Shown one piece after another: positions 14,702 through 38,671 of a DNA stretch of 64,000 nt. Location of the stretch: assembly GCA_009829735.1 (NCBI GenBank), contig CM020620.1:8634545-8698544 (forward strand), given 5' to 3'. A model generated the notes under the pieces. That model saw nothing but the letters and a program-made list of their open reading frames with translations. It had not been told where the DNA came from and did no database searches. Both the position numbers and the translations under genes were made by a program. Source of the stretch: Pyropia yezoensis (Eukaryota; Rhodophyta; Bangiophyceae; Bangiales; Bangiaceae). Positions within the stretch are counted from its first letter, which is position 1; each line of letters starts with the position of its first letter.

Positions 14702-15592
14702 TTAAAACGGCGTTTTCCTTTTTAGGATCTTCAAGGGCCACCTAGCGTACGCCGAGCGTGTCTCATTGGCCTTCTTGATGGCGGTAATGGCAGTCTCCTG
14801 AGCTTCCTGGAGACTGCTCAGCCAATCTGAGACTGCTGATAGTTTCGATTTCTTGCTGTCGAGGATGTCCACAGGTACCGTCCGTGTTTCAAGCCCACAG
14901 TTCAGGAGGAATGGGGAGTAGGTCGTGACCGCCTTAGGTGACCAGTCGTAAGCTACTTCTACAGGAGCAAGGAAGAGGCTCCAATCGCCCTGGTGATGGT
15001 TCACGAAGTTTCGCAGGATTTCTTCAATCTTCTTGTTCATGATCTCGATTTGTCCGTCCGTTTGGGGATGATAGGCCGAACATGCTTTGATTTTAACCTT
15101 GAGAATCTCGGTAAGCGACTGCCAGAAGTTGGAGAAAAGCATACGGTCTTGGTCGCAGACGACCTCGGATGGTAGACCGTGATGACGGTAGACGTGATCA
15201 TGGTAGAGTTGCGCTACCACTGGTGCAGTACAGTCGGGCTTCATTGGCGCTAGTCGAATCATCTTCGAGAGCCTGTCTACAATAACGTCAATGCCATTGT
15301 GGCCCCTTTGGGTCAGTGGAAGAGGGGTGATAAATTCCATGGACACACTTGCCCATCGTTGGTTCGGTGGATTCAGTGGCTTGAGGTGACCCGGAGGTGA
15401 ATGGGTGCCAGCCTTGTTCCGCTGGCACAAATCACATGATTGTACGTATCTTTGGATGTCCTTTCGCATCGTCTTCCAGTAGTACTTGGAAGCAATAGCG
15501 TTGGTGGTTTTCTTGACTCCCATGTGCCCTTGGCTTGGGATGTCGTGGTAGCCATGGAGTAGGCTTTGGCGTAGAGTACCACCGGGATGCAC
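14702..15592 (-). pseudogene. Element 1 integrase (truncated)
   Basis: The zinc-binding HHCC region is visible (HGYH...H...CDLCQRNK). The core has the second acidic residue in VVCDQDRM and the third in DGQIEIMN. The first catalytic position reads SMEFITPLP where the family has MDFI, so Asp is replaced by Glu. The C-terminus is lost after about NETRSAYA, and any chromodomain is missing. Confidence 0.85.
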
Positions 15593-15630
15593 GTACGGTC
15601 ACCTCGTTTCAGCAACCTCATGTGAGTCCG

Positions 15631-16954
15631 TTAGGGAGATACCGGGTCTTTGAGTAGGTCGGCAAACTCGGGGTCCGCGTTGTACTCTTGGTCTAGGGTG
15701 GCAAGGTCTTGATCACATTGGCTCATGGACATGAGGTCGTTGATTTCAGTTTTCTTGGGTAGGCGTCCGGTGGTCTTGGTTAGCACGCGACTAAGTAGAT
15801 CTTGATTGGAAGCGTGCTTGTCGGGGGCGTTTTGCGGTTGCCTCAAATGAGCATCAGCTACGGAGTTGGATGTGCCCTTGATGGGAATGATCTTAAAATC
15901 GAACTGCTCCAAGAGCTCTAGCCACTTGACGTGGCGGTCGTTGAGCTTCTGCTGGGTTTTCAGGTACCTCAGGGACTCATGGTCGCTGTGAACCTCGAAA
16001 GGTCTTCCATGGAGGTAGCAGCGCCAGTGTCTAATGGCTTGTGCTACTGCGAGCAGTTTGCGCTCACGGATACTGTAGCGCTGTTCGTGGATGTTGAGCG
16101 TCAATGAGAAGTAGGGCACTGGGCGTCGTCCTTTTCCGTCATCTTATTCAAGGACTGCACCAACAGCATACCGACTGGCATCTGTGGACCCAAAGATTGG
16201 GTACCTCTTTTCGAATGGCCTCGGTACTGGTGCACTTGTCGTCAGGGTTAGTAGTTGCTCAAAAGCCTTCTGGGCGTCAGAACTCCATTCAACGTCGACG
16301 TTCCCAGCGAGCATTGTGAGAGGTGCAGCCACGGATGCTATTCCTTTAATAAATCGACGATAGAAGTGGACCATGCCGAGGAAGGATTGCACATCTTATT
16401 TGCTGTGCGGCACAGCCGAGGATTGAATGGCTTGGACCTGGTAGTCCTCCATAGAAAAGCCTTCATCGGAAATGACGTGGCCGAGGCAGTCCCGAGTCGT
16501 TCGAGAAAATTGGCACTTGCTTAGCTTGGCGTAGAGTTTATGCTCTCACAACTTGTCCAGTGCTTGCCTTAGGTGCTTCAGGTGATCTTCGTAAGGTTCA
16601 CTACACACCAGAATGTCGTGGAGGTACACACAGATAAAATCATACATGTAAGGTCGGAAGACGTCATTCATTAGATTCATGAAGACCGCAGGGGCGTTTG
16701 ATAGCCCAAAGGGTAGCCCGGTAAACTCGTAGAACCCGTATTTTGTTCGGAACGCCGTCAGCGGGATAGTATCAGGGTCAAGCCGGATCTGGTGGTAACC
16801 TGATCGGAGGTCGATCTTCGTGAAGTACTTGGCCTTTCGCAGTTGGTCGAAGATGTCGTCAATTCGCGGCAAGGAATATACGTTCTTGACAGTTGCCTTG
16901 TTCAATGCTCGATAATCGATTCACGTTCGCCAGCCACTGTCCTTCATGGCTGCA
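15631..16954 (-). pseudogene. Element 1 RT core and RNase H
   Basis: Three broken reading frames. RT (16905–16546) includes [22 protein letters not shown] and [10 protein letters not shown]. The catalytic YxDD box reads YLHD, which loses one essential Asp. The connection domain (16392–16144, SFLGMVHFYRRFIKGI) and RNase H (16119–15631, with HSDHESLRYL) follow after frame breaks. At the right edge the sequence runs into the AATAG target duplication of element 2. Confidence 0.85.
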
Positions 16955-16959
16955 AATAG
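16955..16959. repeat. Target site duplication of element 2, left copy (AATAG)
   Basis: AATAG lies directly before the TGTGGCA start of the left LTR. The same five bases follow the right LTR at 26330–26334. Confidence 0.85.
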
Positions 16960-17428
16960 TGTGGCAGTATTGACCCCCAGGTACGGGGGCAACACGTGCC
17001 ATGCAAGGGGCGGCAGGCCACTAGCCTGATCCGTTCCTCCCCCTGCATTAGGGTCCGTATTCCCTAAGTTTGGGATAGTTAGCTTAGTAGTAAATCCAAC
17101 TTGGATTTGAGGGTTTTCTGCATTTATCGTCTTGAATTTTCGTGTGGCCCGGTGGGCAGGTGCTGGGGTGGGAGATTCTGAGTGGCGAGATTCTGAGGGG
17201 ACCCTGGGGGGATAAGGGGAGGGACAGCGGGTCTTGGCCCTGCGTCCCCGTCCCGACCAAGAAACTGTTGGACCACACACCATCCTCTTGTTTGTCAGTG
17301 GGGGGTTTGCCCCACAACAGGGACAGAGTGTGTGCGACTTGCACTTCTTCCGGTTCCCCCGACACGGGAGGCAGCTCTTGTACACCGCCCCAACTTGGGT
17401 GTCGTGTGTGCAAGTGGTTTTTGCCACA
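16960..17428 (+). repeat. Element 2 left (5') LTR
   Basis: 469 bp, TG...CA ends with 7-bp inverted termini TGTGGCA/TGCCACA. Nearly identical to 25861–26329. Confidence 0.92.
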
Positions 17429-17430
17429 TT

Positions 17431-17448
17431 TGGTGGAGCAGCAGGGGA
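17431..17448 (+). promoter_or_regulatory. Candidate primer-binding site of element 2
   Basis: Two bases after the LTR the sequence starts TGGTGGAGCAGCAGG. A leading TGG, complementary to tRNA CCA ends, is what a tRNA-primed element needs. I cannot name the tRNA. Confidence 0.4.
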
Positions 17449-17547
17449 CAGAGGTAAACTTTACCTCCGGGTGCACCCGGGTGTAGGGGGCCCTCTGTCT
17501 CAGAGGAACGGTGGACTTGGACCGTGTCATACGGATCGTCAGCCAAC

Positions 17548-19488
17548 ATGGCTAGTTCGGACCCCCCGTCGTCCGGGGAGTACACGGGTGACGCACGTAC
17601 TTCAGTGCCTTTGAATACTGGTGAGACACAGGTGGGTTTACCTGGGGTCGCAGAGGGACTGGAGGTCCCTCAAGCCAGCAGGACTGGAAGTGCGGGCGGG
17701 CAACAGGCCACCCCGACTCAGTCGCGAGTTCACTCGGGTGACACTTCTGATGTGGGTGGGCCGAAGTCTGGCCACCGTGTGGTATACTCAACGGGAACGT
17801 CCCAAGGGGTGAGAACTGTCCCCGCGGGTTCCACTCGGGTTGGAGCCAACTTTGGCTTGGAGCCGTCGCCAACTAGGCTTTCGGAGGACGGCGGACCTCC
17901 TTTGGTCGGCGATGGGCTCGCGCCCATGCCCCCGGTTGAGACCCCTGAGGAACGTGGATACCCCTCAGGTGGACTCCCGGAGGCGGACCGAGACTCAACT
18001 GGAGTCGTCAATCCACTCCTCGCGGAAACTGTCCGTCAGGAGGCGACTAATGTGTTGCGGCAGACTTTGCCGGACCTGGTGGTCACGATGACGTATATTA
18101 TTCTGAATCAGATTGTGGCGAGTTTGCCAGATGGCCTTAATGTCCAGACCGGATCGGGGCTTTCGAGCCCGCAGGCGCAGGGGGAATCCCTCCTGACGCC
18201 TACCTCTGGTCGCCCCGAACAGGGGGCGACACCTGAGACTCCCAACGAGGGAGCCACACCATACTCGGTGGGGCGTACGCCCTTCATGAGAGAGTTCCCC
18301 ACGGAAACGCCGGCGGCTACACCAAGCGCGCCGCGCCGGACTACAGGCACTGAGGGTGAACTTACCCCAGTGCCACAGCGGCTGTTCCCTCAACGTGAGG
18401 TGCCGCCCAAGATCCAGGTAGCCAACCCGGTCTACCAGAGGATCTTTGACTGTGAGACCTACGCCCTCCACAACAAGTCGGTGGCGTATGGTCCTGACCA
18501 GGCCCGAGCCATGGGCCGTGCCAAGAAGAATGCACTTCACTCTTTTGGGCACAAAGCGGAGTGGGATGGAACTCCCCCCCTCCGTGTCTTTGAGTTCCTA
18601 CGTCGTTTCACAAAAGCCTGTGACGACAATGCCATAAGTGAAGGCATGGCTTTTTACATGCTACAGGAGTTTACGAAGGGCGACCTGCGGACAGAACTTA
18701 TGTCCGTCATGCCCAGCTCCTCAAGTGGAGGCGCTGGTGAGGTGACGTCCTATTTGGATCTCGTCAACTGGTTGTTGAAAGCCATGCTTGATGAAGCGGC
18801 GTTGGCTTCTCAAGTCGAGGAGTTTACGCAAGCCCATCAGGAAGAGGCGGAGGACGAGTTGTCCTTTGCGGAGCGAGTCCGTAAGCTCAACAATCTTTGT
18901 GGGTTTCTTCATCCACAAGCTGTGGTGAAGAGTCGGTTTGTGGAGGGACTCCATTGGTCAGTCCGGATGGAGACCCGGGAGCATAACACTGCCCGGGCGA
19001 CCCTGGCTGAGTTGGCTAGGTTCTCCTACCGCAGAGGCGAGGCCTACCGCAAGTTGCGGGAGGAACAACGCCAGGAGCGTCAAGCCGAGTTGGCCAAGGA
19101 ACGGGAGGAGGCGCGCCAGGCCAGAGAGTTGAGAGAGGCACGCCGAATCCGCAAGGAGAGGGTGGTAGCTGCCGTGGCAACTTCCCAGGGTATCTCTTCG
19201 TCTTCACCAGTTGGGAAGACCCCTCCGGGAACTGACAATCGGTGTTGGAACTGCAACTCCGATGGACACTATGATTGCCCCAAGTTGAGTAAACGCATCC
19301 AACAACTTGTTAGGAATGCGAGTAAGAAGTCGGTTACGAACGAAGTACGTTCACGCCGCGAGGGTGGGTCTCGACCGGTGGTGGCGGTCGCCACACCCTC
19401 GACGAAGGGGGCGGACACGTCGTCCTCGGACTCGTCGTCTTCTCCTTCGTCCTCAGATTCGGACGCCAAGTCGGCGGGAAACGAATGA
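17548..19488 (+). CDS. gag: Element 2 gag polyprotein
   Basis: 646 codons from ATG 17548, the first ATG in frame and in a good context (AACATGGCT). The N-terminal third is Gly/Ser/Pro/Thr-rich. A capsid-like region follows at about residues 290–500 (HSFGHKAEWDGTPPLRVFEF; EEAEDELSFAERVRKLNNL, typical of retrotransposon gag). A highly charged coiled-coil-like stretch rich in Arg/Glu/Lys comes next, then a zinc knuckle (CWNCNSDGHYDC) and a Ser/Asp-rich tail. The knuckle spacing is CX2CX4HX2C, two residues shorter than the usual CX2CX4HX4C. The TGA stop overlaps the pol ATG in ATGA. Confidence 0.9.
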   Translation: MASSDPPSSGEYTGDARTSVPLNTGETQVGLPGVAEGLEVPQASRTGSAGGQQATPTQSRVHSGDTSDVGGPKSGHRVVYSTGTSQGVRTVPAGSTRVGANFGLEPSPTRLSEDGGPPLVGDGLAPMPPVETPEERGYPSGGLPEADRDSTGVVNPLLAETVRQEATNVLRQTLPDLVVTMTYIILNQIVASLPDGLNVQTGSGLSSPQAQGESLLTPTSGRPEQGATPETPNEGATPYSVGRTPFMREFPTETPAATPSAPRRTTGTEGELTPVPQRLFPQREVPPKIQVANPVYQRIFDCETYALHNKSVAYGPDQARAMGRAKKNALHSFGHKAEWDGTPPLRVFEFLRRFTKACDDNAISEGMAFYMLQEFTKGDLRTELMSVMPSSSSGGAGEVTSYLDLVNWLLKAMLDEAALASQVEEFTQAHQEEAEDELSFAERVRKLNNLCGFLHPQAVVKSRFVEGLHWSVRMETREHNTARATLAELARFSYRRGEAYRKLREEQRQERQAELAKEREEARQARELREARRIRKERVVAAVATSQGISSSSPVGKTPPGTDNRCWNCNSDGHYDCPKLSKRIQQLVRNASKKSVTNEVRSRREGGSRPVVAVATPSTKGADTSSSDSSSSPSSSDSDAKSAGNE

Positions 19489-22400
19489 CCGTTGGAGCTG
19501 GTCGTCCGAAGCTCACAACGGCAGCCTCGGCCAAGTGGGCCAAGAGGACGAGTCAACCGTGCCGGATACTGCGGCGACCTAAGGGAGTCCGCCCACCTCG
19601 GGTAGGACTCCCCAAGAACGTAAAACCACGTCGGGTCATCGCGGTGCTGACGGGTGAGAACTTCCAGGTGGCTGGACGGGTGCAACTTGCCCCCGGCCGC
19701 GCCTGTTGTGCCCGTATCGTACTTGATACCGGGTCAGGAGCCTCCTTGATACGCAAGTCGCTATTACCAAAGGAGATGAAGCTCCAACGCTGGAAGTCTA
19801 AAGCTGACCATCTGATCGATATCAATGGTGGGGTACTTCCCATCGTTGGTGCCGTAACCCTACCAACTAGGTTGGGGACCCATGAGGTCGACGTGACCTA
19901 TGGAGTAGTTGAGAATATATCGGTACCCCTGCTTCTGGGTACCCCTTATGTTGTTACACAAGTGCCTTTGATTTGTGGCCCTGAGTACTGGGTCAAGTTG
20001 ATGAATGGGGAGACTATCCCCATCCTTGGTAAGGGAAAGTCTGTGGCTCCTGTGACAGTCTCACAGTCGAAGCCTGTTTGCTCTGTGAGGGAAGGGTTTA
20101 CTGCTACCCTGCGTTTAGCCCGTAAAGTCACGTTGCCCCCCAACTCGGTGGCGCACGTTGATGTTGTAACTGATTATACGGGGAACGGGTTGGTGCACCC
20201 TCACCCCCGTCTTGCTCGCAAGCACCAAGTGCATGTCGCCCTTGGCACGATGGACTCCAAAACCGGAGTCCCGTGGAGGATCCAGGTTATGAACCTGAGC
20301 TCGTCGCCCAAGTACTTCAAGTCGGGAGCCAAGTTCGGCTATATCGACCAACATGAGGGACCGGTAGTAGCGGCCACCATCAACGCGGGCGCAAGAAGCG
20401 ACGCGAAGTCCGGAAAGGAGAAGCATCAAGCCAAGTCGGCCGCCTCTCCTCGGCCCCATGTGAACATGGAGGGTGTCCCACCCAGGTTGAGGGTTCAAGT
20501 TGAACGCCTCTTGGACCAATATCACAAGTTGTGGGATGGCCCATTGGGACTCATGAGAGCCACCCAACACCGGATCGAGTTGAAGCCCGGTGCACCCCCT
20601 ATACGCCAACAACCGTATAGGGGAGGACCCCGTTCAAGGGCCCTCGTTAAGGAGCAAGTTGCTCGCATGGAGGCCCTCGATGTGATCGATGCCAGCAACG
20701 CCGAGTGGGCGAGTCCGGTGGTTGTCTTCCCCAAAGTTGATGGGACCCCCCGGTTCTGTATCGACTACCGTAAGCTCAACGAGAGCACGGTGAAGGACCG
20801 TTATCCCCTACCTAGGATGGACGACTGTCTGGACTCTCTGGGGGAGGCGAACGTGTTCTCTACCCTGGACTGTAACGCGGGGTACTTGCAAATTCCCATT
20901 GCCCCGGAAGACAGGCATTAAACTACCTTTACCTGTCACTGTGGTACCTACCAGTGCAAGCGTCTGCCGTTTGGCCTGTGTAACGCGCCGGCAACTTTCC
21001 AGCGCGCTAAGGACATGATTCTGGCCGGAGTACGGTGGCAGATCTGTCTCGTGTACCTAGACGATATTATTGTGTTCTCCCGAAGTCCGGAGGAACACAT
21101 TGGCCATCTTGGCCAGGTGTTCAAGCTACTTGCTGACGCCGGTGTGTCACTGAAGGCGAGTAAGTGCCACCTCTTCACTCAAGAGGTGGAATACTTGGGA
21201 CATGTTGTCCGTCCGGGGCGTCTCAGTGTCAACGAGAAAAACTTGAGGGCCATCCGTAAGGCTCAGTACCCCCGGACCCAGACCCAGATGAGGAGCTTCC
21301 TCGGGATGTGTAACGTGTACCGACATTTCACCCAGGGCTTCGCCAAGGTGGCGAAACCGTTGAATGAGTTAGTGAGCTCAACGCTACCCAAGAACCTGCC
21401 TCCCCCAAGTCGGGTGGAGCAGGAATCCTTTGAGACTCTTCGGGACCTTCTGCAGAAGCCCCCTATCCTGGCTATTCCCAGGTTGGGAGGCCACTACATC
21501 CTGGATGTGGACGCTAGCTACGACCAACTTGGTTGTGTGTTGCTTCAGCAGCAGCCGGACAAGGAGTACTTGCCGGTGGGATACTTCAGCAAGGGGCTGA
21601 ACTCGGCCGAGAAGAACTACGGAGTCACCGAGTTGGAAGGACTCGCAGTGGTGTGGGCGGTGACGTCACTTCGTCACTACCTAGAGGGTGAGAAGCTCCT
21701 CATCCGCTGTGACCACCGCGCGTTGCAGTTCATCTTCAAGACGGACTGTACGAACACTCGTCTCAACCGGTGGAGGGTGCGACTGGCACCCTTCAACTTT
21801 GATATTGAGTACCGTCCCGGCCGGCAACATGCCTTGGTCGACGGTCTGTCTCGGGTACCTACCGAGGGGCTGGACACTAACCCAGTCGATGAGGACATCC
21901 CCATCGTGGGGGTAGGCACGCGCTCGGGTCAGGCGTTGAACCCCGAGGCGCCAGGGAACAAGAAATACTTGCCCCTGTCCCTGGACGAGGTGGTGAAGGC
22001 CCAGGCCGAGGATCCCTTCTGCAAGTCGCAGAGGGATACACTGGATACAGTGGCGGAGACGCGGTTCTTTCTGGGAGACGATGGCCTCCTCATGAGGAGG
22101 GGGGTATTCCAGGGGACCGAACAACTTGTCGTCCCCGCATCCCTCAAGGACAGTATCCTTGAGAGGGAGCATAACGCTCCCACAGGTTGACACCTGGGGT
22201 CTAGTAAACTGTACCGGACCCTGAGGACCAGGTACTACTGGCCGTCCATGGTGGTGGACATCTACAGTTGGGTGGCTGCCTGCACAAGTTGTGCACAGAA
22301 CCGTCTGATGGAACGGCGGCCTACTACGGCTATGCTATTGTTCCCGGCCAAGGAGCCCTTTGCCGCGTTGGCGATGGACATCCTTGGGCCACTGCCAGTG

Positions 22401-23468
22401 ACCGAGGAGGGCAACCAGTACCTCCTGGTAATCTGTGACCGCTTCACGAAACTTACGCGAGCGATCCCACTGGCAGAGATCACGGCCATGTCGGTCGTGT
22501 CAGCCTTCCTAGATCACTGGGTTGCCGCGTATGGCATTCCGAATAGTACACTATCGGACAATGGACCGCAATTTGCGTCTGTACTGTTTCAGGGAGTGCT
22601 GGATATGTTGGGGGTGCGGGCAAACTATGCCACCCCCTACCACCCACAAACTAATGGGCAGGTGGAGCGCTTCAACAAAACAATTGTTAGGCAGCTGCGC
22701 CACTATGTGAGTGAGCACGTGAAAACGTGGGACCAATACATTTCTATTCTTACCACTGCCTACAATTCGCAGGTTCACTCATCTACCGGGGAAGTACCCC
22801 TCGCTTTTGTGACCCCCCGTTGCGTGCGGTCTATTGCCGTGCGGCGGCCGCTCCCAACTAGGGAGGATGGCGGCAGTACGCCTACTCCTACTGAGAGTAA
22901 GGCGGAGTTCGCTGCTAGGCTTGAAAACCTCATCCCTAAAGTCAGGGCTGAGATGGACAAAGCACAAAAGCGCTACAAGCGTACCTTTGACAAAAAGGTG
23001 CGCAATGCTAAGCATGTCCCCGAGCAGGGTGACTGGGTGCTGGTACACTCACACACCCCAACTGGGGGTAAGTTGGTATTCCAGACGAAGGGGCCGTACC
23101 AGGTCCTTCGTACTGATGGGCGGCGCTTCACCATCGAAAGTGACGATGGGGTCCGCACAGTAAACGGACAGGACGTTGTCAAAGTTGCACCACCACCTGC
23201 AGGCGACCCAGCTTGGGCGCGTGCTTTGGAAGCGTGGCGCCTCCCCTCACTGCCTGCGGCCAAACAGGGCCCGCAGGAGTACGTGTTCGATCAGTTCATT
23301 GACCACGGATGGGATGAGGACACTGACCGCCGCATTTTGAGGGTGCGTTGGTTTGGCTACAAAGCAAAGGATGATACGTGGGAGTATGTGGAGGACCTTC
23401 CCGCTGAGAAGGTCCGGGCGTACTGTGCCCGGAATGAGATAGACCCTAACAGCCCTCCCTCATCGTGA
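19485..23468 (+). pseudogene. pol: Element 2 pol polyprotein with two in-frame stops
   Basis: One frame of 1,328 codons interrupted by TAA at 20919–20921 and TGA at 22188–22190; element 3 has sense codons at both places. Domains in order: aspartic protease (LDTGSGASLI); RT (IDYRKLNESTVKD, LPFGLCNAPATF, catalytic YLDDIIVF intact); RNase H (LDVDASYDQLGC, RCDHRALQ); integrase with HHCC zinc region, and catalytic Asp in AMDILGPLP, Asp in LSDNGPQF, Glu in QVERFNK; then a C-terminal chromodomain-like segment (VFDQFIDHGW, LRVRWFGYKAKDDTWEYVEDLP). Chromodomains steer such elements to particular chromatin. The start overlaps gag by four bases, suggesting termination–reinitiation or −1 frameshifting. 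Confidence 0.92.
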
Positions 23469-23579
23469 GGGAAGGCCGAGCAACAGTGCCAAGAGAGTGC
23501 TTCAAGTCGAAGTGGTACGCAGAGTGGCTTTTAACTACAGCCCTAACCCTCACACTCTCACAACAAAGGCAGCTGCCAA

Positions 23580-25523
23580 CTAGGCATGCATGCTTGACTC
23601 TCCAACCCCACGGCCCTCGCCCTCACGTAGAGGCGAGCGGCGAGACCCACGGCGATAACGCTCCCCACCAGTCGGCGGGGCCGGCGGCTCCAAGTCGGAC
23701 CAGTCGCGCCCCTCACGGTCGCGCAAGTGGCGACGACCGCGGCTGCTCTTCTGCTTAGTCTTGCGCGCAAGTTGGCGAAGCAGACGCCGGACCGACTCCG
23801 ACTCTGACGGAGTCGAGGACTCCGAGACGGAGCAAGACAACTCGTCTTCCGACACGGAGGGAGAGCGCCGCGAGCGTCGGCGACGACGGCGAGGAGGCGA
23901 GTATGCCCGGCTCGCACGACGTTTGCCACGCCCAAGTGGGGCTGGCTGGGGCATAATAGCCCCAATGCGAGCCAGCTCGGCCGTCATAAACTCCGCCACC
24001 GACTCGCAACTCGCGGTCGCCACTGCAGTACGAACGCGCTCCTCAAGTTGAGGAGTCTCGGAAGTTTGAAGGGTTGCGGTCGACGCGGCCAACCAGGAAA
24101 TGGTGCGCACCAACGTGGTGATCACCATCTCTGAGGTTAGAGGCGTGGGCGGTAACACCAACTTGGGGTATACCGTCAGGAGGGTGGCCCCCAAGTTGGG
24201 GGACACCGGGGTGGACGACTCAACGGCCACGCTAATCGGGATGTCCCCGTGGGGCTGGTAGGGGACAGGAGGAAGCGGAGGGGCACGCCGAGGTGGCGGG
24301 ACCCGGGTGTAACTGCGACCTCGACTTGGGGCCCCCGCAGTGGGTTGAGTCATATGGTCATCATGTGAGGGCACGGCCATAACTATGGCCTTGTCCGGGG
24401 GTGGCGCAGTGTGGCGATCCACCCCCGGGGCATACGGGTAGTCCCCGATGCCCAACCCCTCTTGTAGGACCACACGGCCGTCGTGAAGTTCACGAGCGAC
24501 CCACACGAACTGGCGAAGTGCGCCATCGTCCTTGGGCCCACGAGTGGGGCGGCGCAACTTGTGCTCAATGCTCTCCCACTCGATAAACTTGTGGAGGCGG
24601 AGCATCTCCTCAAGTAGAGTAAGTTGTCCTGATGAGCACCCCTCAGCAACTAGCTGAGGGGTGAGCTGTTCCAGACCTTGGATAAGCCGGAGTGGGAGAT
24701 GCCAGAGCATCCCCGGCCGCTGAACACAAGACACCCAGGTCGATATGACCTCGAGGAGCCACTGGGTGGCCAACATGGCCCACACCAGATGATCAGGGCC
24801 AGCCGTCAACATGACGGAGTCGAAGTGGTCAAGCAACCGTGGCAGCAACGCCGGGAACCCGTAGGGGACCTCTACTTGAGGCCACCACTCGGGCTTCTTC
24901 GGATAGTACTGCTCCTTACTGGCAGCAGACTGCTGAGGAAACTCAAGTTGAGCCGAGGTCACCAAGTAGGGACCTCGCCGGAAGTCCTTCTCCATCCGCA
25001 CATCAAAGTGATGAGTGTGCGGATCGGCCTCGTGAAGGTACGGGGGGCGAGTTGCCCTCGCGTCCCAAGTAAAGGTCGGCAAGTCGCCGGGACCCGGGAT
25101 AGTTCCCCCGCGGTCCACCATGGCCTTGGCCCGCTGTACGTCTTCGACCTCCTCGTCGTCCAGGAAGGCAAACTGGTCCGTCCTGAAGCCGGCAGGGAAC
25201 CCGACCCTACGGGGATACTTCTCCCGTAGGCGGTCCCATACCCGACCCATCGCTGCGCCAAGTCGGCCACAGCGAAGAACAGTCAACCCCTCCTCATATA
25301 GAGGCCAAGCGGGGTAAAACCACAGCCCCAAGGCCTCACGCGGGACAACTTGTCCCGCCTCCGGGGGAGATCCCGCCGTCAACCCAAAGCCGGGTGACGC
25401 GGGAGTCCCATCCCCCGGAGCGATCGCGGAGCCCCCGCCGGAAGTCCCGGCAGGCGCTGCACCGTAGGAGGTGTCCTCCTTACATTCGTCGAGAGAGTCC
25501 GTCTCCATCCCCGGGGTCGCCAT
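23580..25523 (-). CDS. Antisense ORF of element 2, unknown function
   Basis: 647 residues from ATG 25523 on the strand opposite gag-pol, between pol and the 3' LTR. The frame is open further upstream to about 25709 without an ATG, and that part is also similar in element 3, so an upstream exon is possible. The N-terminus is Gly/Ser/Pro-rich. The central part (about residues 70–450) looks globular, with many Trp and aromatic residues (YPAWPLYEEG, EWWPQVEVPYGFPALL, VWAMLATQWLLEVISTWV, FIEWESIEHKLRRP, VWVARELHDGRVV). The C-terminus is strongly basic and Arg/Ser-rich (PPRRRRRRSRRSPSVSEDE), which suggests nucleic acid binding or nuclear entry. I recognise no family. The same frame survives in element 3 (36850–38671) with four stops but no net frameshift, and differences concentrate at third positions. 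It converges on pol with a gap of 111 bp. Confidence 0.75.
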   Translation of the reverse strand: MATPGMETDSLDECKEDTSYGAAPAGTSGGGSAIAPGDGTPASPGFGLTAGSPPEAGQVVPREALGLWFYPAWPLYEEGLTVLRCGRLGAAMGRVWDRLREKYPRRVGFPAGFRTDQFAFLDDEEVEDVQRAKAMVDRGGTIPGPGDLPTFTWDARATRPPYLHEADPHTHHFDVRMEKDFRRGPYLVTSAQLEFPQQSAASKEQYYPKKPEWWPQVEVPYGFPALLPRLLDHFDSVMLTAGPDHLVWAMLATQWLLEVISTWVSCVQRPGMLWHLPLRLIQGLEQLTPQLVAEGCSSGQLTLLEEMLRLHKFIEWESIEHKLRRPTRGPKDDGALRQFVWVARELHDGRVVLQEGLGIGDYPYAPGVDRHTAPPPDKAIVMAVPSHDDHMTQPTAGAPSRGRSYTRVPPPRRAPPLPPVPYQPHGDIPISVAVESSTPVSPNLGATLLTVYPKLVLPPTPLTSEMVITTLVRTISWLAASTATLQTSETPQLEERVRTAVATASCESVAEFMTAELARIGAIMPQPAPLGRGKRRASRAYSPPRRRRRRSRRSPSVSEDELSCSVSESSTPSESESVRRLLRQLARKTKQKSSRGRRHLRDREGRDWSDLEPPAPPTGGERYRRGSRRSPLREGEGRGVGESSMHA

Positions 25524-25847
25524 GGCTCTCCCCAAGTTGGGGAGAGAAGCCCTGGCTACAGCGGCACGAGACCCGCCTCGAGCTGAGGGGGACTCGGATC
25601 GTGGGTAGACGGGTGGCCTCCCCAGCGTGGGGCGGCCCAGTGGAAGGTGAAGGGGAGGTGGTGGGATGGTGAAGTGAGAACCGGGGAGAGCAAGCTGCCG
25701 AGTGGGCAAGCTTGAGGAGAGGGGCGGTCAACGTGACCGCCTCCACATCCGCGTTACGTACTCCAGGGGGGACAGCAAGTCGCGCCCCCAACGCCCAGAC
25801 GTGCGTTTACGCACCCCCTCACAGGGCCGACCGGGTCGGTCGGAACT

Positions 25848-25860
25848 GAGGAGAGGGGAG
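25848..25860 (+). promoter_or_regulatory. Polypurine tract of element 2
   Basis: GAGGAGAGGGGAG directly precedes the TGTGGCA start of the right LTR, the usual place for the plus-strand primer. Confidence 0.75.
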
Positions 25861-26329
25861 TGTGGCAGTATTGACCCCCAGGTACGGGAGCAACACGTGC
25901 CATGCAAGGGGCGGCAGGCCACTAGCCTGATCCGTTCCTCCCCCTGCATTTGGGTCCGTATTCCCTAAGTTTGGGATAGTTAGCTTAGTAGTAAATCCAA
26001 CTTGGATTTGAGGGTTTTCTGCATTTATCGTCTTGAATTTTCGTGTGGCCCGGTGGGCAGGTGCTGGGGTGGGAGATTCTGAGTGGCGAGATTCTGAGGG
26101 GACCCTGGGGGGATAAGGGGAGGGACAGCGGGGCTTGGCCCTGCGTCCCCGTCCCGACCAAGAAACTGTTGGACCACACACCATCCTCTTGTTTGTCAGT
26201 GGGGGGTTTGCCCCACAACAGGGACAGAGTGTGTGCGACTTGCACTTCTTCCGGTTCCCCCGACACGGGAGGCAGCCCTTGTACACCGCCCCAACTTGGG
26301 TGTCGTGTGTGCAAGTGGTTTTTGCCACA
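25861..26329 (+). repeat. Element 2 right (3') LTR
   Basis: 469 bp, matching the left LTR with about four substitutions by eye. On the minus strand it carries an open frame with a Cys-rich stretch (CLPCRGNRKKCKSHTLCPCC), but its first codon is GTG, not ATG. It could be an exon of the antisense transcript or chance. Confidence 0.92.
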
Positions 26330-26334
26330 AATAG
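26330..26334. repeat. Target site duplication of element 2, right copy (AATAG)
   Basis: AATAG directly after the right LTR, matching 16955–16959. Confidence 0.85.
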
Positions 26335-27166
26335 GACAGAGGAGCCCCACGGTGAGGTCCTTGGTTAGATGAATCCCTGTTGTAAAAGGGTTGCCAGTTC
26401 TGTCTTGAGTTCATCGAGTTCCCACTCGGATAGACGATAAATGTCACTGCGACGTGGTTAAGCGTCCTCCGCAAGCTTGACGCTAACCTTGAGAAAGCGT
26501 TCAGGAAGAAGTCCATCCGGACGCTCTTCCAGGAAGACGTCGGTGTAATGCTTGAGCATCTCTTGGACGTCATTCTTGTCTTCAGCTGATCCGATTCTGA
26601 TGGCGTTGATGTCTAAGGTGCTAGAAGGATCTTCGGACTTCAGGTAGATGGCGAAGACAGAAACTTTTTGGAGAAGGTCCTTGGCGAGGCGTTGCCTACT
26701 AATCAGGCCATGGGGTTTCTTGATGGAGGCAGTGATGGAGATGTTCTTGTGGTTAAACTTGATGGAGATCTTGTTTTTTGTTGTTGATTTTGGCGTCCTT
26801 GTCGTCACGCCATTTCTTGCCGAGGATGATGTCGTACGCACTAAGGTCGCATACAGCAAACCGAAGACGTTCTTGGTATTGGCCGATGTGGATCTATAAG
26901 GGTTCAATGGTTTCCGCGAGGACGCGGGAGCGACCATCGGGCATGCTAGCTGCGAAGCCCGTTTCTTTCGTGGTCACATTCAGGGTATTCACGAGGCGCC
27001 TTGATAAGACGCTAATGGGAGATCCGTCGTCGAACGGCACCTTCGCAAGATGTCCATTGACAGAGGCAGTAGAAAGGAGGCCCGAGACGCGGGCCTTCGA
27101 ACGGTGTCGACGTGTATTCAGGAACCGAAGAAGCCTCTGGCACCGGTTTTGATGACGGCTGTTGCT
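26335..27166 (-). pseudogene. Element 1 protease and RT N-terminus
   Basis: Minus-strand pieces in shifting frames. CDLSAYDIILGKKW is the protease C-terminal region. YTDVFLEERPDGLLP and ELDELKTELATLLQQGFI are the start of RT. A stop follows GFI. The sequence breaks at the element 2 insertion after WGSSVLF. Confidence 0.78.
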
Positions 27167-27929
27167 TCAGTTCCGCTGGCCTTTTAGGCAGTTCTTGGCC
27201 ATATGTCCTTTCTCAAGGCAGCGGAGGCAGAGACATTCACGCATGCAACGCTGAAGCTCCTCAGGCGTGAGTTTCTCGACTTTGATGCTGGAGACATCCA
27301 CGGGAATCACACCCGTCCTGGACGGCTTCACAGTTGTGCCGCTGAGATGCGTCGAAACATCAGCCTTGGCAGCCTCCATGTGCACTGCGTCAGTCATCAG
27401 GGATGCGAGATCGGAGTAGGTATTGAGACAAAGGGCCTGCCAGATCTCCCGCTTCAGACATCTGGTATACCGGTCAATCTTTTCGGCATCAGTGATGTCA
27501 GGGATGTCCAAGAGGACGCTCAGAAACTTCCTGTTGAACGTTCCGACGTCGTTGATCTGGCGCCATGAGTGCAGCTTGTCTCGTGCCGCCTGTGTCTTGT
27601 TCAGTCGACTGAAGCGTCCGATTAGCACAGAACGGAAGGATTCCCAGTTCGGTACAGCTGTAGTCTGACTGTAGACTTTTCACCAGTCGAACGCTTCACC
27701 ATTGAGGAAGGAGCAAGCGATACTGCATGCATCGTCGGGGTCACTCAGTCGCACATAGAAATCCATGCTTCGGGAGGACCCCAAACAAGACCTCAGAGAT
27801 GTGGGATAGCAGTTTGTCTGAAGCAGTAGTGGTGTTCACGATTTGAAAAAGTGCTGCGGTAGTTGCTGCAACGTTCCAAATTCTGTACAGCACATTTTGG
27901 AGAAGCACAAGAAATTCGGTTGACATCAC
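27167..27929 (-). pseudogene. Element 1 gag
   Basis: The open part (27628–27167) has a capsid-like region (WRQINDVGTFNRKFLSVLLD) and a standard zinc knuckle CLRCLEKGHMAKNC (CX2CX4HX4C). The upstream portion to about 27929 is recognisable in broken frames. The knuckle differs in spacing from that of element 2, so the two elements belong to different lineages. Confidence 0.8.
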
Positions 27930-28054
27930 ACAAACGGACTATTCGGATGCGTCCGTGCATGGGCCCGAGTCGGGCCGTGTCGGATTTCCCAGCGGGGGGA
28001 TCAATGGGGGGAAATCAGGCTCCTAGGCCAGATCCAGGGGTTTGTCAACAGGTG

Positions 28055-28357
28055 TCAATCGGTGCGGTGCGCCAGAGGGCGATGATGATCCTTGCCACGT
28101 GTGTGCCGCACGAAATGTTCCACCGAACGAAATACGCGACCGCAGGGTTCGCAACGGGGAAAGGTGTCTCGACGGTTACTTGTGTCACGGTGTCGACGAG
28201 ATCCGCGGTGATCGCGCAGCACTGTGAGGCTCTTGCACCGCACACCGCATAGTTCGCAAAGGAGGTTCCCTTGCGCCCCACGGAGGCTCTTGTCAATTTG
28301 GCGCTGCTCGCGTTGCTCAACCGCGTGCGTGGTGGTGGGCTTAATGTGGCCAATCAC
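28055..28357 (-). pseudogene. Tandem U1/JAZ-type C2H2 zinc-finger ORF fragment
   Basis: Two fingers with identical spacing CX2CX12HX5H: C at CELCGVRC...H...RGSRRH, and CEPCGRVF...H...RGKDH. This wide His spacing marks U1/JAZ/matrin-type fingers, which bind double-stranded RNA or RNA–protein complexes in known families. A Lys/Gln/Arg-rich stretch precedes them. The fragment has no ATG of its own. The same frame is open upstream from 28912 to 28466 but is separated by a TAG at 28466–28468 and a TAA near 28400; an intron there would join them. Upstream frame: an ATG at about 28912 and a Pro/Arg/Ser-rich region with 6-residue repeats. Whether it is a live spliced gene or a relic is open. Confidence 0.5.
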
Positions 28358-28591
28358 CAGCGGTGGCGGGGCGGTGTAACGGCGCCCCGGTTGTTGCGGG
28401 GGTAGTTACAGGCAACGGTAGACGTGGGCTGCCTTGTTTTTGGTGGCAGGGCCCTTGCCTTTGCTCTAGAGGGGGGGCTTAGGTGCGGTCCGGCCCACCG
28501 AGGGAAGGCGGACTGGGACCGCCGGGGTACTGATAGAGAACGCGCCCGCCGGGAGATTGCATGCCCTCGGGCGGGCGTATGCCTGCGGGGG

Positions 28592-28660
28592 GCCGAGTGC
28601 CGACGGGGAGCCGCGTGCCGACGGGGGGCCGCGTCCTGACGGGGGGCCGCGTGCTGACGG
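28592..28660 (-). repeat. 18-bp tandem repeat
   Basis: Four imperfect copies of an 18-bp unit. On the minus strand in the zinc-finger frame it encodes hexapeptides SARGPP, SGRGPP, SARGSP and SALGPP, which suggests that this frame was translated. Confidence 0.75.
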
Positions 28661-28918
28661 ATCGTAGGCCGTGAAGGCGCCACGGGCCGTCGGGGATGCG
28701 CGGACCGTCCGGGGTGCGTCGGGGGTGCGCGGGTCGTCAAGGGTTTGCGCGCCGATGGGGTGCCACGTGACGTGCCCGTTTCGCGCGTCGAGGCCGCCGA
28801 GGATGTCGGGCCGGCCGCCAGTGCTAAGGAAGAATATTCCAAATCTGATGTTGATCTCTCTGGGATTCATCAATCGGTTGGCCAACAGACACATTCCGTG
28901 AAAAAAGACCACAAGGGT

Positions 28919-29934
28919 TGTGTCAGGAAATTGTTCGCTCGGTGTGATTCGTGGAATCCGCTACGTTCGTATTACAACGCGCATGGCAAGCCAAACGCAG
29001 GGGGCTGCACGACTGCACAATCGTAGGGAGAGCCAAGTCAAGAAGGGAATCGTAAGTCACCGCCAGGTGGATAGTCAAACTACCAGAAACTACCACCTGT
29101 GAGGAAGCACCCACACTTGGGCAGCCCTTAACTTACTCGTCGTGGGGTCAGCGAGCCATGCCAGCCAATAGCGCGACAGGGTGCGATAAAGATGAAGATG
29201 GTGACGGTGGTGCGTCTGGAGGACGGCGCGATGTCGGTGGTGATCGAGGGGTTTCAAAGGGTTCAGGTCGTCTTCGGTCTGCGTCGCGGTTTCCCCTCCG
29301 GTCTCCCCCGGTGCCACCGATGCCCACGCAATATATACTCGCGTCGGGGCACTCGAGGTCCCCCAAAGCATGCGTTTCTCCATCGCGCCGCTGGTAGGCA
29401 CATAACGGCCCAAAAACAAAGCATGGCCCTCAGAACAAAGCATGTACGGGCGTTTGCAATAAAGGACTGCTGCCCCAGTTTGCCCTAAACGAAGGGGTCC
29501 GGCGTGCGGCGCCTGGTGCGCGGCCCCAGTCGCCCCCAGACGTCAGTCGCTTCGAAGGTCCGAGAGGCGTGTGAGCACAGTTCGATCGAGTCGACCGAAT
29601 CGGCTAGCCGGCTAGCCAGTCACATCGCTGCAATGCTGCAGCGAGGACATTCTCACGGACTCGCCAGCTATGGCAGATGTGGCTCGTCATGGGTGCTGAT
29701 GGTGGCGCCTTTCGACAGGCCATGATGGGCTGTCGATGGCCGCTGTCGTGCGGTCGGCAGACACCGTGAGACAGCGGCTGACTCATCCTGATTCTGTAAG
29801 GTACACCGCTTCATGCCCCAGAATACAAGGATTTGATCGATGTTGCCAGGAGTTGGCTCGGCTGGATATGTAAGGACAGGTCCCAGATATCATCCCTTAG
29901 GTATCAGGCATGGGATTAGGGGGAAATCCTCACA
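28919..29934 (-). repeat. Candidate 3' LTR of element 4
   Basis: On the minus strand the integrase stop of element 4 is followed by a purine tract (GGGGGGGGAGG) and then TGTGAGGATTTCC. The candidate far end reads TCCTGACACA, giving TG...CA ends with partly matching inverted termini. A TATA-like TATATATT lies at about 29327–29334 in the same orientation. The other LTR is not in the window, so the far boundary is tentative. Confidence 0.4.
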
Positions 29935-29944
29935 CCTCCCCCCC

Positions 29945-30480
29945 TTAGGACGTGCGTTGAAAGAAAGCGTCGAGAACCTCAGGTGCGTTCTTGAGGTCTT
30001 GCTTGGTTTGCCAGGTGGTCTCACTGACATCGCAGCCTTTCCACGTGAACAGGTGCTGCAGTCGTCCATGGCGTTTTCGCGACCGTATAATGGAGTCCAC
30101 TTTGTACTCAACCAAACCGTCCGGAGGTGCTACTGCAGGTGAAGCGGGAGGAAGTCGACCATATGGAGCAGCGCTGTATGGCTTCAGTAGACTGGTGTGA
30201 AAGGCGTTGTGCACCCTTCGATCAAGGACTGCTTGAGGAAATTCCAGACGGAATGTAACATCGTTGATGCGAGCAGGGACTCGTTCCTGTCCCGAAAACT
30301 TGGGCATCATCTTGCGAGCGCCGTGGAAAGTGTCCAGCACATGGTTCTTGGTGCTCAGGAGCACGAGATCATTCAGAGTGATCGTGCATGGTTGACGTCG
30401 GCGGTTAGCGGACGCCGAGCGTGTCTCATTGGCCTTCTTGGTGGCGGCAATGGCTGTCTCCTGAGCGTCTTGCGGACTGC
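29945..30480 (-). pseudogene. Element 4 integrase C-terminus with chromodomain-like end
   Basis: The minus-strand segment begins ETAIAATKKANETRSA, nearly the same words as the end of the element 1 integrase. It continues through the GPY/F-like region (FRLEFPQAVLDRRVHNAFH, SLLKPY) to a chromodomain-like block (YKVDSIIRSRKRHGRLQHLF, TWKGCDVSETTWQ). The stop is at 29945. Everything upstream in the element is missing; the frame runs on into unrelated low-complexity sequence. Confidence 0.78.
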
Positions 30481-30489
30481 TAGTGGCGT

Positions 30490-30950
30490 GGCGGTGCTGG
30501 GCAGGCGCGCAGATACCCCTGCCGGTTGGCGGTGTTGTCAACGGCGTTGCGGTGGGTGGTGGTCGTGGCGGGGCGCCGCGTGGTGAGGGTAGTGTGAATC
30601 GCGCTCCTTGGGCGCGTGCTCCGGCGGCGGATGGCAACGGCAGCGACGACTTTGCTGCGGGTGGTGGTCGTTGCAGGCCGACGCGTCGTGGAGGTGTTGA
30701 CGGCGCGTGTGGTGCGGGTGGTGGCCGTGGCATTGTGCCTGCTTCTCCCTCTGACGCGCGTGGCGTTGCCGGGCTGGCGCGCAGCCACCCCTGCCGGGTG
30801 GCGTCGTAGGCGACGGCGGTGCGGCGGGTGGTGGTTGTGGCGGAGCGCCGCGTGGTGGGGGTGGTGCGGATCGCGCTGCTGGCGTTGGTGGGCGGGCGCC
30901 GGATGGCGACGGCGGCGATGATTATGCTGTGGGTGGCGTGGTGAAAGTGG
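30490..30950. repeat. Imperfect direct duplication, period about 278 bp
   Basis: Two diverged units (about 30490–30690 and 30768–30950) share phrases such as GCGGGTGGTGGT and GCGCCGCGTGGTG in the same order. On the minus strand they encode related peptides (TRRSATTTTRRTAV and TRRPATTTTHRNAV). Confidence 0.65.
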
Positions 30951-31421
30951 GCGAAGGCCTTTGTGTTGGGTTTGTGGCGTTTACCCGGCGGCGGACGGGG
31001 TAGCGTGAGGGAGTGATAATAGGCCGCCGGCGCCATCTGCCATACCCATATTTCTGCCCAGCACATGCCCTTCCAAGTGTGTGCCCCATCAGCTACTTTC
31101 GAGGCCACGGCGTTTGCCACAGAGCGTTTAAACAACAGCTCCCCAGTGCCTTTTTGACAGGCATGTCGTTTACAAGGACATGAGCTGAGCAGCTCAGGCG
31201 TACACCACATGAAAAGGCTCTCGCAAAATATTTCGCACGCACCCTCCACACAGACCAACACACACAGAGACAGGCAACAACATGTCAAAGCCAACAGACA
31301 CCCACAAGCGCGCCCGTCTAGTCGCTAGCGTCGACTTCTTCGTCGCTACTGCTGCCAAGCATTGGATCGGTCACCCCCCCATCAGCCTCCTTGTCGTTGT
31401 AGTCGAAAAGCTGCACCTCTA

Positions 31422-35247: not shown

Positions 35248-36849
35248 CATACGTCAGGCCCAGTACCGCCGGACGCAAACCCAGATGAGGAGCTTCCGCG
35301 GGATGTGTAACTTGTACCGACATTTCACAAAGGGCGTCGCCAATGTGGCGAAGCCGCTGAACGAGCTAGTCAGCTCGACGCTGCCGAAGAACCTACCTCC
35401 CCCAAGTCGGGAGGAGCAAACAGCCTTTGAGACCCTTCGGGATCAGTTGCTGAAACCTCCCATCTTGGCTATTCCCAGGTTGAAAGGCCACTACGTCCTA
35501 GACGTGGATGCTAGCCACGTCCAACTTGGTTGTGTGCTGCTACAGCAACAGCAGGACAAGGAGTACTTGCCGGTAGGATACTTCAGCAAGGGTCTGAACG
35601 CGGCCGAACGAAACTATGGAGTCACCGAGTTGGAGGGACTCGCAGTGTTGTGGGCGGTGACGTCACTTCGTCACTACCTGGAGGGTGAGATGTTCTTCAT
35701 CCGTTGTGACCACCGCGCGTTACAGTTCATCTTCAAGACGGATTGCACGAACACCCGCCCCAACAGGTGGAGGGTGCGACTTGCACCCTTCAACTTTGAC
35801 ATTGAGTACCGTCCCGGCCGGCAACATGCCTTGGTCGACGGTCTGTCTCGGGTACCTACCGAGGGGCTAGACACTAACCCAATCTATGAGGACATCCCCA
35901 TCGTGGGTGCGGTTCCGCGTTCGGGGCAAGCGTTGATCCCCGAGGCAGCAGGGAACAAGAAGCACTTGCCCCTGTCAGGGGACACAGTGGTGAACGCACA
36001 GGCCGATGTTCCCTTCTGCAAGTCGCATAGGGAGGCGCTTGATGTAGTGGCGGAGACGCGGTTCTTCGTCGTAGAGAACTGCGTCCTCTTGAGGAGAGGG
36101 GCCATCCAGGGGATTGAACAACTTGTTGTCCCCGCATCCCTCAAGGACAGTATTCTTGAGCGAAAGCATAATGCTCCTACAGGTGGACACCTGGGGTCTA
36201 GTCACCTATACCAGACCCCGAGGACCCGACACTACTGGCCCTTCATGGTTGTGGACATCTACAGCCGGGTGGCTGCATGCACAAATTGTGCGCAGAATCG
36301 CCTGATGGAACGGCGGCCACCTACTGCCCTGTTGCTGTTCCCAGCCAAGAAATCCTTTGCCGCGTTGGCTATGGATATCCTTGGAGCCCGTGCAGTGACC
36401 GAGCATGGCAACCAGTACCACCTGGTCATCTGCGATCGCTTCACGACACCTACGCGAGCGATCCAACTGGCAGAGATCACGGCCATGTCGGTCGTGTGAG
36501 GTCACTGGGTTGCCGCGTATGGCATCCCAGACAGTACGCTATCGGACAACGGACCGCAATTTTCGTCCGTCCTGTTTCTCGTAGTGCTGGTCCTGTTAGG
36601 GGTTCGGGCCAACTATGCCACCCTCTACCACCCACAGACTAATGGGCAGGTGAAGCGCTTCAACAAGACTATTGTATGGCAGAGGCGCCACTATGTGAGT
36701 GAGCACGTGAAAACGCGGGACAAATACATTTCTATTTTGAATACTGCCTACAATTCGCAGGTTCACTGTTCTACGGAGGAAGCACCCCTCGCTTTTGTGA
36801 CTCCGCGCCGTGTGCGGTCTATTGCTGTACAGGGGCGGCTTCCAAGTAT

Positions 36850-38671
36850 GGAGGCGCCCCTCACGGTCGCGCAAGTGGCGACGACCGCGGCTACTCTTCT
36901 CGTTGGTCTTGCGCGCAAGTTGGCGACGCAGACGCCGGACCGACTCCGTCTCCGACGGGGTAGAGGACTCCGAGACGGAATAAGACATTCCGTCTTCCGA
37001 CACGGAAGGAGATCGCTGCGAGTGGCGGCGACGACGACGAGGAGGAGAGTAGGTACGGCTCGCCCGAAGCTTGCCGCGCCCAAGTGGGGCCGACAAGGGC
37101 ATGATGGAGCCGATGCGAGGCAAGTCGGCCGTCATAAGCTCCGCAACCGACTCGCAACTTGCAGTCGAGACCACACTGCGAACGCGCTATTCAAGTTGAG
37201 GGGGCTCCGAAGTCTGCAGAGTCGCTGCCGACGCGGGCATCCACGAGATGGTGCGCACCAACGTGGTGATAAGCATCTCAGAAGTCAATGGCGCAGACGG
37301 CAACACGAACTTGGGGTAGACCGTAAGTAGAGTGGCTCCCATGTTGGGGGACACTGGCGTGGATGACTCATCTGCACTGCCAATCGTGATGTCCCCGTGC
37401 GGCTGGAACGCAACAGGAGGAAGAGGAAGGGCTCGCCGACTTGGCGGAGCCCGAAGGTAGCCCCGACCTCGAGTTGAGGCCGCCGCGGCACCTTGCGCCC
37501 GAAGCTCCTCAGGGTCGGTGACTGCAACCACAAGGTTCTTCTCCGGGAGCGGCGCAGTCTGGCGCTCCACCCCTGGGGCATACGGGTAGTCTCCAATGCC
37601 CAACCCCTTCTTGAGTACCACGCGGCCGTCGTGAAGTTCACGGCCGACCCAGACGAACTGGTGAAGTGAGCCGTCGTCTTTAGGCCCACAGGAAGGCCGG
37701 CGCAATTTGTGCTCAATGCTCTCCCACTCGATGCACTTGTGAAGCGTCAACATCTCCTCGATTACAGTGAGTTGACTCGACGAGCACCCCTCAGCAACTT
37801 ACCGAGGGGTGAGCTGCTCCAAACCTTGGATCAGGCGGGGTGGGAGGCGCCAGAACATCCTACGCCTCTGGACGCAGGCCACCCAGGTCGATATGACCTC
37901 GGAGAGCCAGAGTGTTGCCAACATGGCAAACACTATGTGGTCCGGGCTAGCCGTCATCATGAAGGAGCCAAAGTGGTCAACCAACCACGGTAGTAGCGCG
38001 GGGAACGCATATAGAACCTCAACTTGAGGCCACCACTCGGGCTTCTTGGGGTAGAGAAACTTCTTGTTCGCCGGCGCTTGTTGCGCAAACTCAAGTTAAG
38101 CCGAGGTCACCAAGAAGGGAACTCGTCGGATGTCCTTCTCCATCCGCACGTCGAAGTGATTGACGTGTGGATCAGAGGTACGGAGGAGCGGGGGGCAAGT
38201 TGCCACCACGTCCCACGTGAAAGTCGGTACGTTGCCGGGGCCCTCGGTGGTACCCCGGCGGGTCAACCAGGTCTTGACCCGCTGCCCGTCGTCGACCTAT
38301 TCGTCGTCAAGGAAAGAAAACTGGCCCGTCTTGAAGTCGGGAGGGAACCCGACCCTACGGGGGAATTTCTCCTGTAGGCGCCCCCAGATGCGATCCATCG
38401 ACGTGCCAACTCGGCCGCAGCGGATAATCGTCAAGCCCTTCTCGTCCAGGGGCCAGGGTGGGCAGTAACACCTCCCCAGGGCCTCCCGCGAAGTAACGGG
38501 GCCTACCTCCGGGGGAGAGCCCGCCGCCAACCCCGAGTCGGGTGGCGCAGGCATCCCAACTCCCGGGGCAACCGCGGAGCTCCCACCGGAAGTCCCGACG
38601 GGTGCTACAACGCGAGGCGTGTCTTCCATACGCTTGTCCAGGGAGTCAGACTTCACCCCGGAGTACACCAT
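36850..38671 (-). pseudogene. Antisense ORF relic in element 3
   Basis: Homologous to the antisense ORF of element 2 over nearly its whole length, including the Arg/Ser-rich C-terminus (YSPPRRRRRHSQRSPS) and the ATG position (38671). All similar segments fall in one frame, interrupted by four in-frame stops (near 38297, 38097, 37796 and 37184) and no net frameshift. Between 37295–37369 and 24147–24221, 25 codons differ at 13 bases. Eleven of these are third positions, and only three codons change their amino acid. Confidence 0.8.

Follow-up and report, generated by a model that had tools for sequence, protein, structure and literature searches.

Genes that run antisense to gag-pol, in the space between pol and the 3' long terminal repeat (LTR), have been documented in the elements Grande, RIRE2, Retand, PvRetro13 and Boty (sources include PMC7264820 and PMC11963269, both cited here and below from excerpts). 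These sources, as excerpted, describe the Grande antisense protein as nuclear and its gene as having its own promoter upstream (PMC7264820, PMC11963269), place an antisense promoter of human T-cell leukemia virus (HTLV) in the 3' LTR (PMC7264820), report that 97% of Retand clusters encode TRP28 (PMC11963269), and call the functions of LTR-retrotransposon antisense open reading frames (ORFs) undetermined (PMC7264820). According to an excerpt of PMC7423979, LTR retrotransposons are the predominant repeats in the genome of the red alga Pyropia yezoensis. Here we analyze a 64,000-nucleotide stretch of this genome (the window; contig CM020620.1, positions 8,634,545 to 8,698,544), which contains a Ty3/gypsy element with a 647-codon antisense ORF (aORF) on the minus strand, at 23580–25523. 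The presence of this ORF between pol and the 3' LTR, and its preservation by selection, had been proposed in a sequence-only reading of the window, and both are borne out: aORF is almost certainly a real gene under selection, intact in many copies of the element, fixed in its position across the family and constrained much as the integrase is.

Selection on the antisense frame

Sixty copies of the element were fetched in part: 47 young ones, which are ~95–98% identical to the window copy where they align with it, and 13 old ones (~80%). These are the most similar copies, the searches having scored 40 of 1,516, 68 of 3,585 and 40 of 1,526 candidates; most were found via protein score, and 24 also appear in the list from the DNA search. 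One copy (L057), which is mis-oriented and is not matched to the reference by BLAST with the default word size, was excluded from every codon count, so that the old set comprises 13 copies after L057 was dropped and element 3, an older relative within the window, was added. Expected numbers of nonsynonymous (N) and synonymous (S) changes were obtained by reassigning the observed changes, one by one, to sites with a matching trinucleotide context. Each variable column was counted once, against weighting by relatedness; identical rows were collapsed for the counts of variants in at least two and at least four copies, and kept for the counts in at least three copies, by block and by subfamily.

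Variants shared by at least two of the 46 distinct young copies comprise 68 N and 160 S changes in aORF (expected 146.8 and 77.3), which corresponds to a ratio of nonsynonymous to synonymous rates (dN/dS) of 0.22 (95% confidence interval (CI) 0.17–0.29; binomial p 8e-28), next to 0.26 (CI 0.19–0.35) for the integrase. As a control, the three minus-strand frames of the LTR yielded 0.86, 0.71 and 1.38 for shared variants, none of which differs from 1. For variants in at least four copies, the ratios are 0.18 for aORF and 0.19 for the integrase, and among the 24 DNA-listed copies plus the window copy, variants in at least three copies give 0.19 and 0.18, respectively. When aORF is divided into ten blocks of at most 65 codons, shared young variants show dN/dS of 0.00–0.35, that is, constraint along the whole length. 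Singletons, which appear to be mostly post-insertion changes, give 0.72 in aORF, 0.63 in the integrase and 0.98–1.06 in the LTR frames, and in the old set, shared variants give 0.52 and 0.51 for aORF and the integrase. Because shared variants show low ratios and singletons relaxed ones in both genes, the constraint acts on lineages that are still transposing and relaxes later, alike for aORF and the integrase.

In smaller or non-independent subsets, single LTR frames fell to 0.25–0.47, in differing frames and with few variants; we take these dips as a sign of how noisy small counts are, not as selection. A cysteine-rich 169-aa ORF on the minus strand of the LTR (25819–26328) was considered and rejected as probably not a gene, the LTR minus frames being without significant constraint.

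Pairwise comparison with the window copy (rows with less than 80% coverage dropped, leaving 5 old copies for the integrase and 10 for the LTR; every fourth young copy used) gave the antisense frame a dN/dS of 0.44 for old and 0.41 for 12 of the 47 young copies, and four of the other frames 1.30–1.82. The remaining frame, sense +2, is low as well (0.56 old, 0.54 young), but the stops in it number 23 for the window copy and 22–29 per copy for the young set. Since it is full of stops, and since the integrase (0.32 in the 5 old copies and 0.26 in young ones in its own frame) casts a like antisense shadow of 0.41, sense +2 is a complementary wobble shadow and not a coding frame. The explanation by a sense frame, which the sequence-only reading had set as a test of its claim, fails accordingly; the claim also withstands the two further tests set there, an antisense dN/dS close to 1 in many copies and a lack of the ORF elsewhere in the family.

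These data also bear on the possibility that no protein is involved, aORF being a chance open frame or else a by-product of selection for a sense frame that overlaps it or for RNA structure. The region is GC-rich (64%), which favors long ORFs; however, the longest open frame in 23469–25860 runs to 715 codons, and 2,000 first-order Markov simulations never exceeded 458 (median 199). Third-position bias and dN/dS both point specifically to the antisense frame, sense +2 is riddled with stops as noted, and there is no Rfam match at gathering score within 16900–26400. We regard this explanation as having next to no chance of being correct.

The selection argument had originally been drawn from 25 codons compared between the window copy and element 3. 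That sample is exact (13 differences, of which 11 fall on third positions; among the 12 changed codons, 9 are synonymous) but flatters the full overlap, where the differences number 114, 81 and 203 at codon positions 1, 2 and 3, and the changed codons include 132 synonymous, 170 nonsynonymous and 4 stops. The same frame was said to persist in element 3 with stops but no net frameshift, which is correct for the part present (no indels, 4 stops) but not for the stretch matching 22867–23705, which is lost. This deletion in element 3 (36200–39467) spans the end of the integrase/chromodomain gene and the last ~42 aORF codons, where both genes meet.

Integrity, position and start of the gene across the family

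The aORF occurs in other copies of the element, as seen both in the fetched copies and in genome probes. None of the 47 young copies contains an indel in aORF; 34 are free of stops, and the remaining 13 have one or two. Across the aORF region, the antisense frame accumulates 0–2 stops per copy, and the other five frames 9–29. Nearly all old copies (12/13) carry a stop, the exception being L059, which is open across the stretch matching residues 1–641 at 74% identity.

Genome-wide counts with 24-base probes (up to 2 mismatches) found 1,177 integrase and 1,125 aORF sites, and reversed control probes found 0. An exact aORF probe lies at 2034±60 bp on the same strand for 64 of the 100 listed exact integrase sites, and 64 of the 98 exact aORF sites in the same range pair with an exact integrase probe; these pairing figures are lower bounds, given that exact matches were listed and mismatched probes were not. 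Judged by the probe counts, aORF is present in most copies of the family, as in an antisense additional ORF (aORF-3R). If all sites were full-length, the family would make up roughly 11 Mb, about a tenth of the 107.5-Mb genome. Two of the fetched copies ~13 kb apart, L031 and L032 (G000:C3:9270985-9275275 and 9284086-9288376), are identical across the fetched 4,291 bp, which reflects either recent duplication or a stretch duplicated in the assembly, and another pair, L016 and L021, are ~11 kb apart, inverted and 99.93% identical.

The distribution across copies speaks to the possibility that aORF is cargo: a gene taken from the host, or a foreign element nested in this one, which would be neutral or of use to the host and would play no part in the cycle of the element. 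The lack of relatives in known retroelement protein families would agree with such an origin. Nevertheless, aORF occupies the same place in the young and old subfamilies at a copy number close to that of the integrase, and the combination of constraint on shared variants with relaxation in singletons, as in the integrase, is the pattern of a gene needed during transposition, so that we consider cargo quite improbable.

Translation of aORF probably starts at 25523, given that this ATG is retained in 48 of 48 young copies (the window copy counted) and that, in the stretch examined, 46 of the 48 lack any other in-frame ATG upstream; the other 2 have one 128 codons upstream. The program-made ORF list gives 709 aa, counted from an upstream TTG. 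In 34 of the 48 young copies, the frame remains open for 77 codons upstream of the ATG, with no ATG there. Shared variants in this upstream extension (25524–25858) show dN/dS of 0.51 (23 N, 23 S), falling to 0.30 toward the LTR (5 N, 9 S) and rising to 0.64 toward the ATG (18 N, 14 S); the singletons give 1.08 and the fixed differences 0.73. In the part near the LTR, shared variants are mostly at third positions (10/15), and beyond the extension there are stops. On the minus strand, the polypurine tract at 25846–25860 reads by eye as a polypyrimidine run followed by CAG, resembling a splice acceptor. This string at the LTR edge is only a lead for splicing of a putative antisense transcript.

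Layout of the element and its surroundings

The features of the element, and the related region of element 3, are as follows.

16960–17428, plus strand: 5' LTR, 469 bp, TGTGG...CCACA, outer flank AATAG recurring past the 3' LTR; ends set by eye
17524–19488, plus strand: probable gag ORF, 654 aa, without a Pfam match, named from its position and a zinc-knuckle-like CX2CX4HX2C seen by eye
19485–22190, plus strand: pol (protease, reverse transcriptase (RT), RNase H), one frame with in-frame stops in the window copy; ORFs 19485–20921 and 21015–22190
22248–23468, plus strand: integrase with a chromodomain-like C-terminal end; Pfam rve E 5.7e-12, Chromo E 0.0046 (below cut-off)
23580–25523, minus strand: aORF, 647 aa, ATG-initiated, opposite to gag-pol
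25524–25860, minus strand: spacer from the aORF start to the 3' LTR, containing the polypurine tract that adjoins the LTR
25861–26329, plus strand: 3' LTR, 469 bp, then AATAG
36854–38800, minus strand: decayed aORF region of element 3, the older relative; same frame, 4 stops, final ~42 codons gone

The element covers 16960–26329 (9,370 bp) and, with RT and RNase H preceding the integrase in the Pfam scan, is of the Ty3/gypsy type; the domain order is gag, protease, RT, RNase H, integrase and, last, a weak chromodomain match. BLAST aligns the LTRs as 16958–17428 and 25859–26329 with 4 differences per 471 bp, and trimming by eye yields the ends listed above, with AATAG flanking both sides. In pol, the matches to RVT_1 (E 3e-12) and RT_RNaseH (E 2e-30) are above the Pfam cut-off, and those to Asp_protease_2 (E 0.01) and an N-terminal RVT_1 segment (E 9.7e-5) are below it. 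The Chromo match, under the curated cut-off, covers residues 352–392 of the integrase ORF, and PF00385 is carried by several of the integrase relatives among the matches listed. Gaps of 111 bp and 337 bp separate aORF from the integrase/chromodomain ORF and the 3' LTR, respectively. In the window copy, pol (19485–23468) is broken by in-frame stops at 20921 and 22190, and aORF is whole. Other gypsy-type fragments, recognized by eye from ORF translations, lie on the minus strand at 14702–16119 and 26458–31294, and by the same reading no aORF-like ORF was noticed beside them.

The protein and its possible role

The aORF product (71.6 kDa) consists of a Gly/Ser/Pro-rich N-terminus (residues 1–60), a body (61–395), a Pro-rich linker (396–460) and an Arg-rich tail (526–647), with helices predicted at low confidence around residues 464–522. 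The isoelectric point is mildly acidic for residues 1–525 (5.5) and very basic for residues 526–647 (11.7). The C-terminus had been called Arg/Ser-rich, and the Arg-rich half of this description stands (31% Arg plus Lys in residues 526–600), but enrichment of RS/SR dipeptides does not. No domain had been recognized in that reading, and profile searches likewise returned no significant family match.

Among 5.8 billion proteins, only one (P0001, 576 aa, 96%) matches aORF, whether the whole protein or residues 55–395 are searched, compared to 545 relatives of the integrase, of which 120 were listed; identity in these reaches 64%. The best integrase relatives are ~60% identical over nearly full length, and the sources of those listed are mostly of the metagenome type. 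The contrast may partly reflect faster evolution of aORF and the sensitivity of the word-based search, and we do not claim that aORF is absent from relatives of the element. In phage records and viral contigs, aORF has no match, and the integrase gave two unconfirmed pattern matches, both in viral contigs.

The reading that we favor, and consider likely overall, is that aORF is a true retrotransposon gene expressed from an antisense mRNA and encoding an accessory factor. The mRNA would begin within the 3' LTR or close to it and run tail-to-tail toward gag-pol, from a promoter that, by analogy with Grande and HTLV, probably lies in the 337-bp spacer or in the 3' LTR. The basic tail would probably take the product into the nucleus, for which the nuclear Grande protein offers an analogy, and the combination of a mildly acidic body with an Arg-rich tail suggests binding there to RNA or cDNA of the element or to chromatin; that the product is a nuclear nucleic-acid-binding accessory factor we consider moderately likely. 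Such a factor could aid the expression, RNA handling or integration of the element itself, and the lineages that went on transposing would be those that retained the protein.

Two other roles for a real gene remain live rivals. The first is a structural role, in which the particle would contain a further protein of capsid or nucleocapsid type, its tail binding the genomic RNA. The overall outline (low-complexity N-terminus, body, basic tail) gives a Gag-like impression, and the integrase-like constraint would fit. Yet aORF shows no similarity to the gag of the element (local score 48, reached by 138/300 shuffles), no zinc knuckle is seen by eye, there is no Pfam capsid match, and antisense mRNA would be an unusual route for a structural protein; we therefore consider this role unlikely. 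Local scores against the RT and RNase H parts were reached by 37/300 and 294/300 shuffles. The score against the integrase ORF (59) was reached by 1/300, and as one of four tests is not built on.

The second rival is a protein that counters host silencing, based on double-stranded RNA (dsRNA) or chromatin, of the converging transcripts. Converging genes would form dsRNA, which a basic RNA-binding protein could mask; the excerpted PMC7264820 considers dsRNA arising from antisense transcripts of this kind, and a family of ~1,100 copies fits an element escaping control. However, aORF resembles no Pfam suppressor family, and we rate this possibility about as low as the structural one, or marginally above it.

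Several results weigh against the accessory-factor reading that we favor. Profile searches at E≤1 found no significant Pfam family (only ThiJ_like, E 0.18, below cut-off) and no PHROGs, NCBIfam or PDB-sequence match. The AlphaFold2 models are unusable (pLDDT 30.6 for the whole protein and 31.8 for residues 62–395), most likely from want of divergent relatives. The suggestion of nucleic-acid binding comes from charge and from nothing independent of it, and the RS/SR dipeptides number 5, a count that some window reaches in 830/5,000 shuffles. Stops interrupt aORF in 9 of the 24 DNA-listed copies, and the stop-free fraction reported above for the 47 young copies probably overstates the family-wide rate because these copies were chosen for similarity to the window copy. 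The fixed differences between the young and old subfamilies give dN/dS of 0.42 for aORF vs 0.15 for the integrase, so the aORF protein diverges faster over longer times; by block, these values range from 0.13 to 0.78, the highest falling in codons 131–195. Finally, old-set singletons, at 0.99 in the integrase, stand at 0.84 in aORF.

Comparison with known systems

The ~1,100-copy family gives a clean population-genetic answer to one part of the question of what antisense ORFs in LTR retrotransposons do: constraint on the antisense frame is close in strength to that on the integrase, with the integrase and the LTR as built-in controls. Among the titles and abstract openings listed in searches of the open literature, with most subscription journals outside this coverage, we found no red-algal report of such a gene, and the word "antisense" is absent from the main text of the survey PMC6317226. 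Given that no earlier red-algal report was found and that aORF has no TRP28 domain, antisense accessory genes may have more than one origin. The full-length cDNA reported for Pyropia yezoensis makes the putative antisense transcript directly checkable.

HBZ, an antisense gene of HTLV, has a bZIP domain, and its spliced mRNA comes from the 3' LTR. A regulator of the HBZ style that evolved independently of retroviruses would likewise be made from an mRNA with its start in the 3' LTR. Splicing would take place a short way into the element, with the complementary strand of the polypurine tract acting as polypyrimidine tract and acceptor, and the product would be a nuclear protein that transposition requires. 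We hold this to be improbable; if true, a single tract would be used twice, to prime the plus strand and to splice the antisense mRNA.

Compared to the described systems, aORF shares its place and orientation and differs in host and domains. The plant setting invoked by the sequence-only reading does not apply: Grande (gene23), RIRE2 and Retand are Ty3/gypsy elements of plants, whereas the host of aORF is a red alga (the Grande and RIRE2 proteins were compared by description). An additional antisense gene (brtn) in a gypsy-type element of Botrytis cinerea was reportedly described by Zhao et al. in 2011; this fungal, Boty-like case, compared by description, is alike in having such a gene, and both searches of the 5.8 billion proteins with aORF gave P0001 and no other protein. 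As excerpted, Retand is a non-chromovirus with ORFs that mostly carry TRP28 (PF04195), whereas aORF has no PF04195 match in the Pfam scan at E≤1; PvRetro13 ORF2 of Phaseolus is an antisense ORF in the same place, but its reported SMC domain was not found in aORF by Pfam; and the HTLV antisense genes (HBZ and APH-2) lie near the 3' LTR of a retroelement and have a nuclear product, but aORF has no Pfam bZIP match like that expected of HBZ. Thus, aORF is a gene of a type already described elsewhere, here in a lineage for which we found no report, without a detectable relation to TRP28 and with firm evidence of selection.
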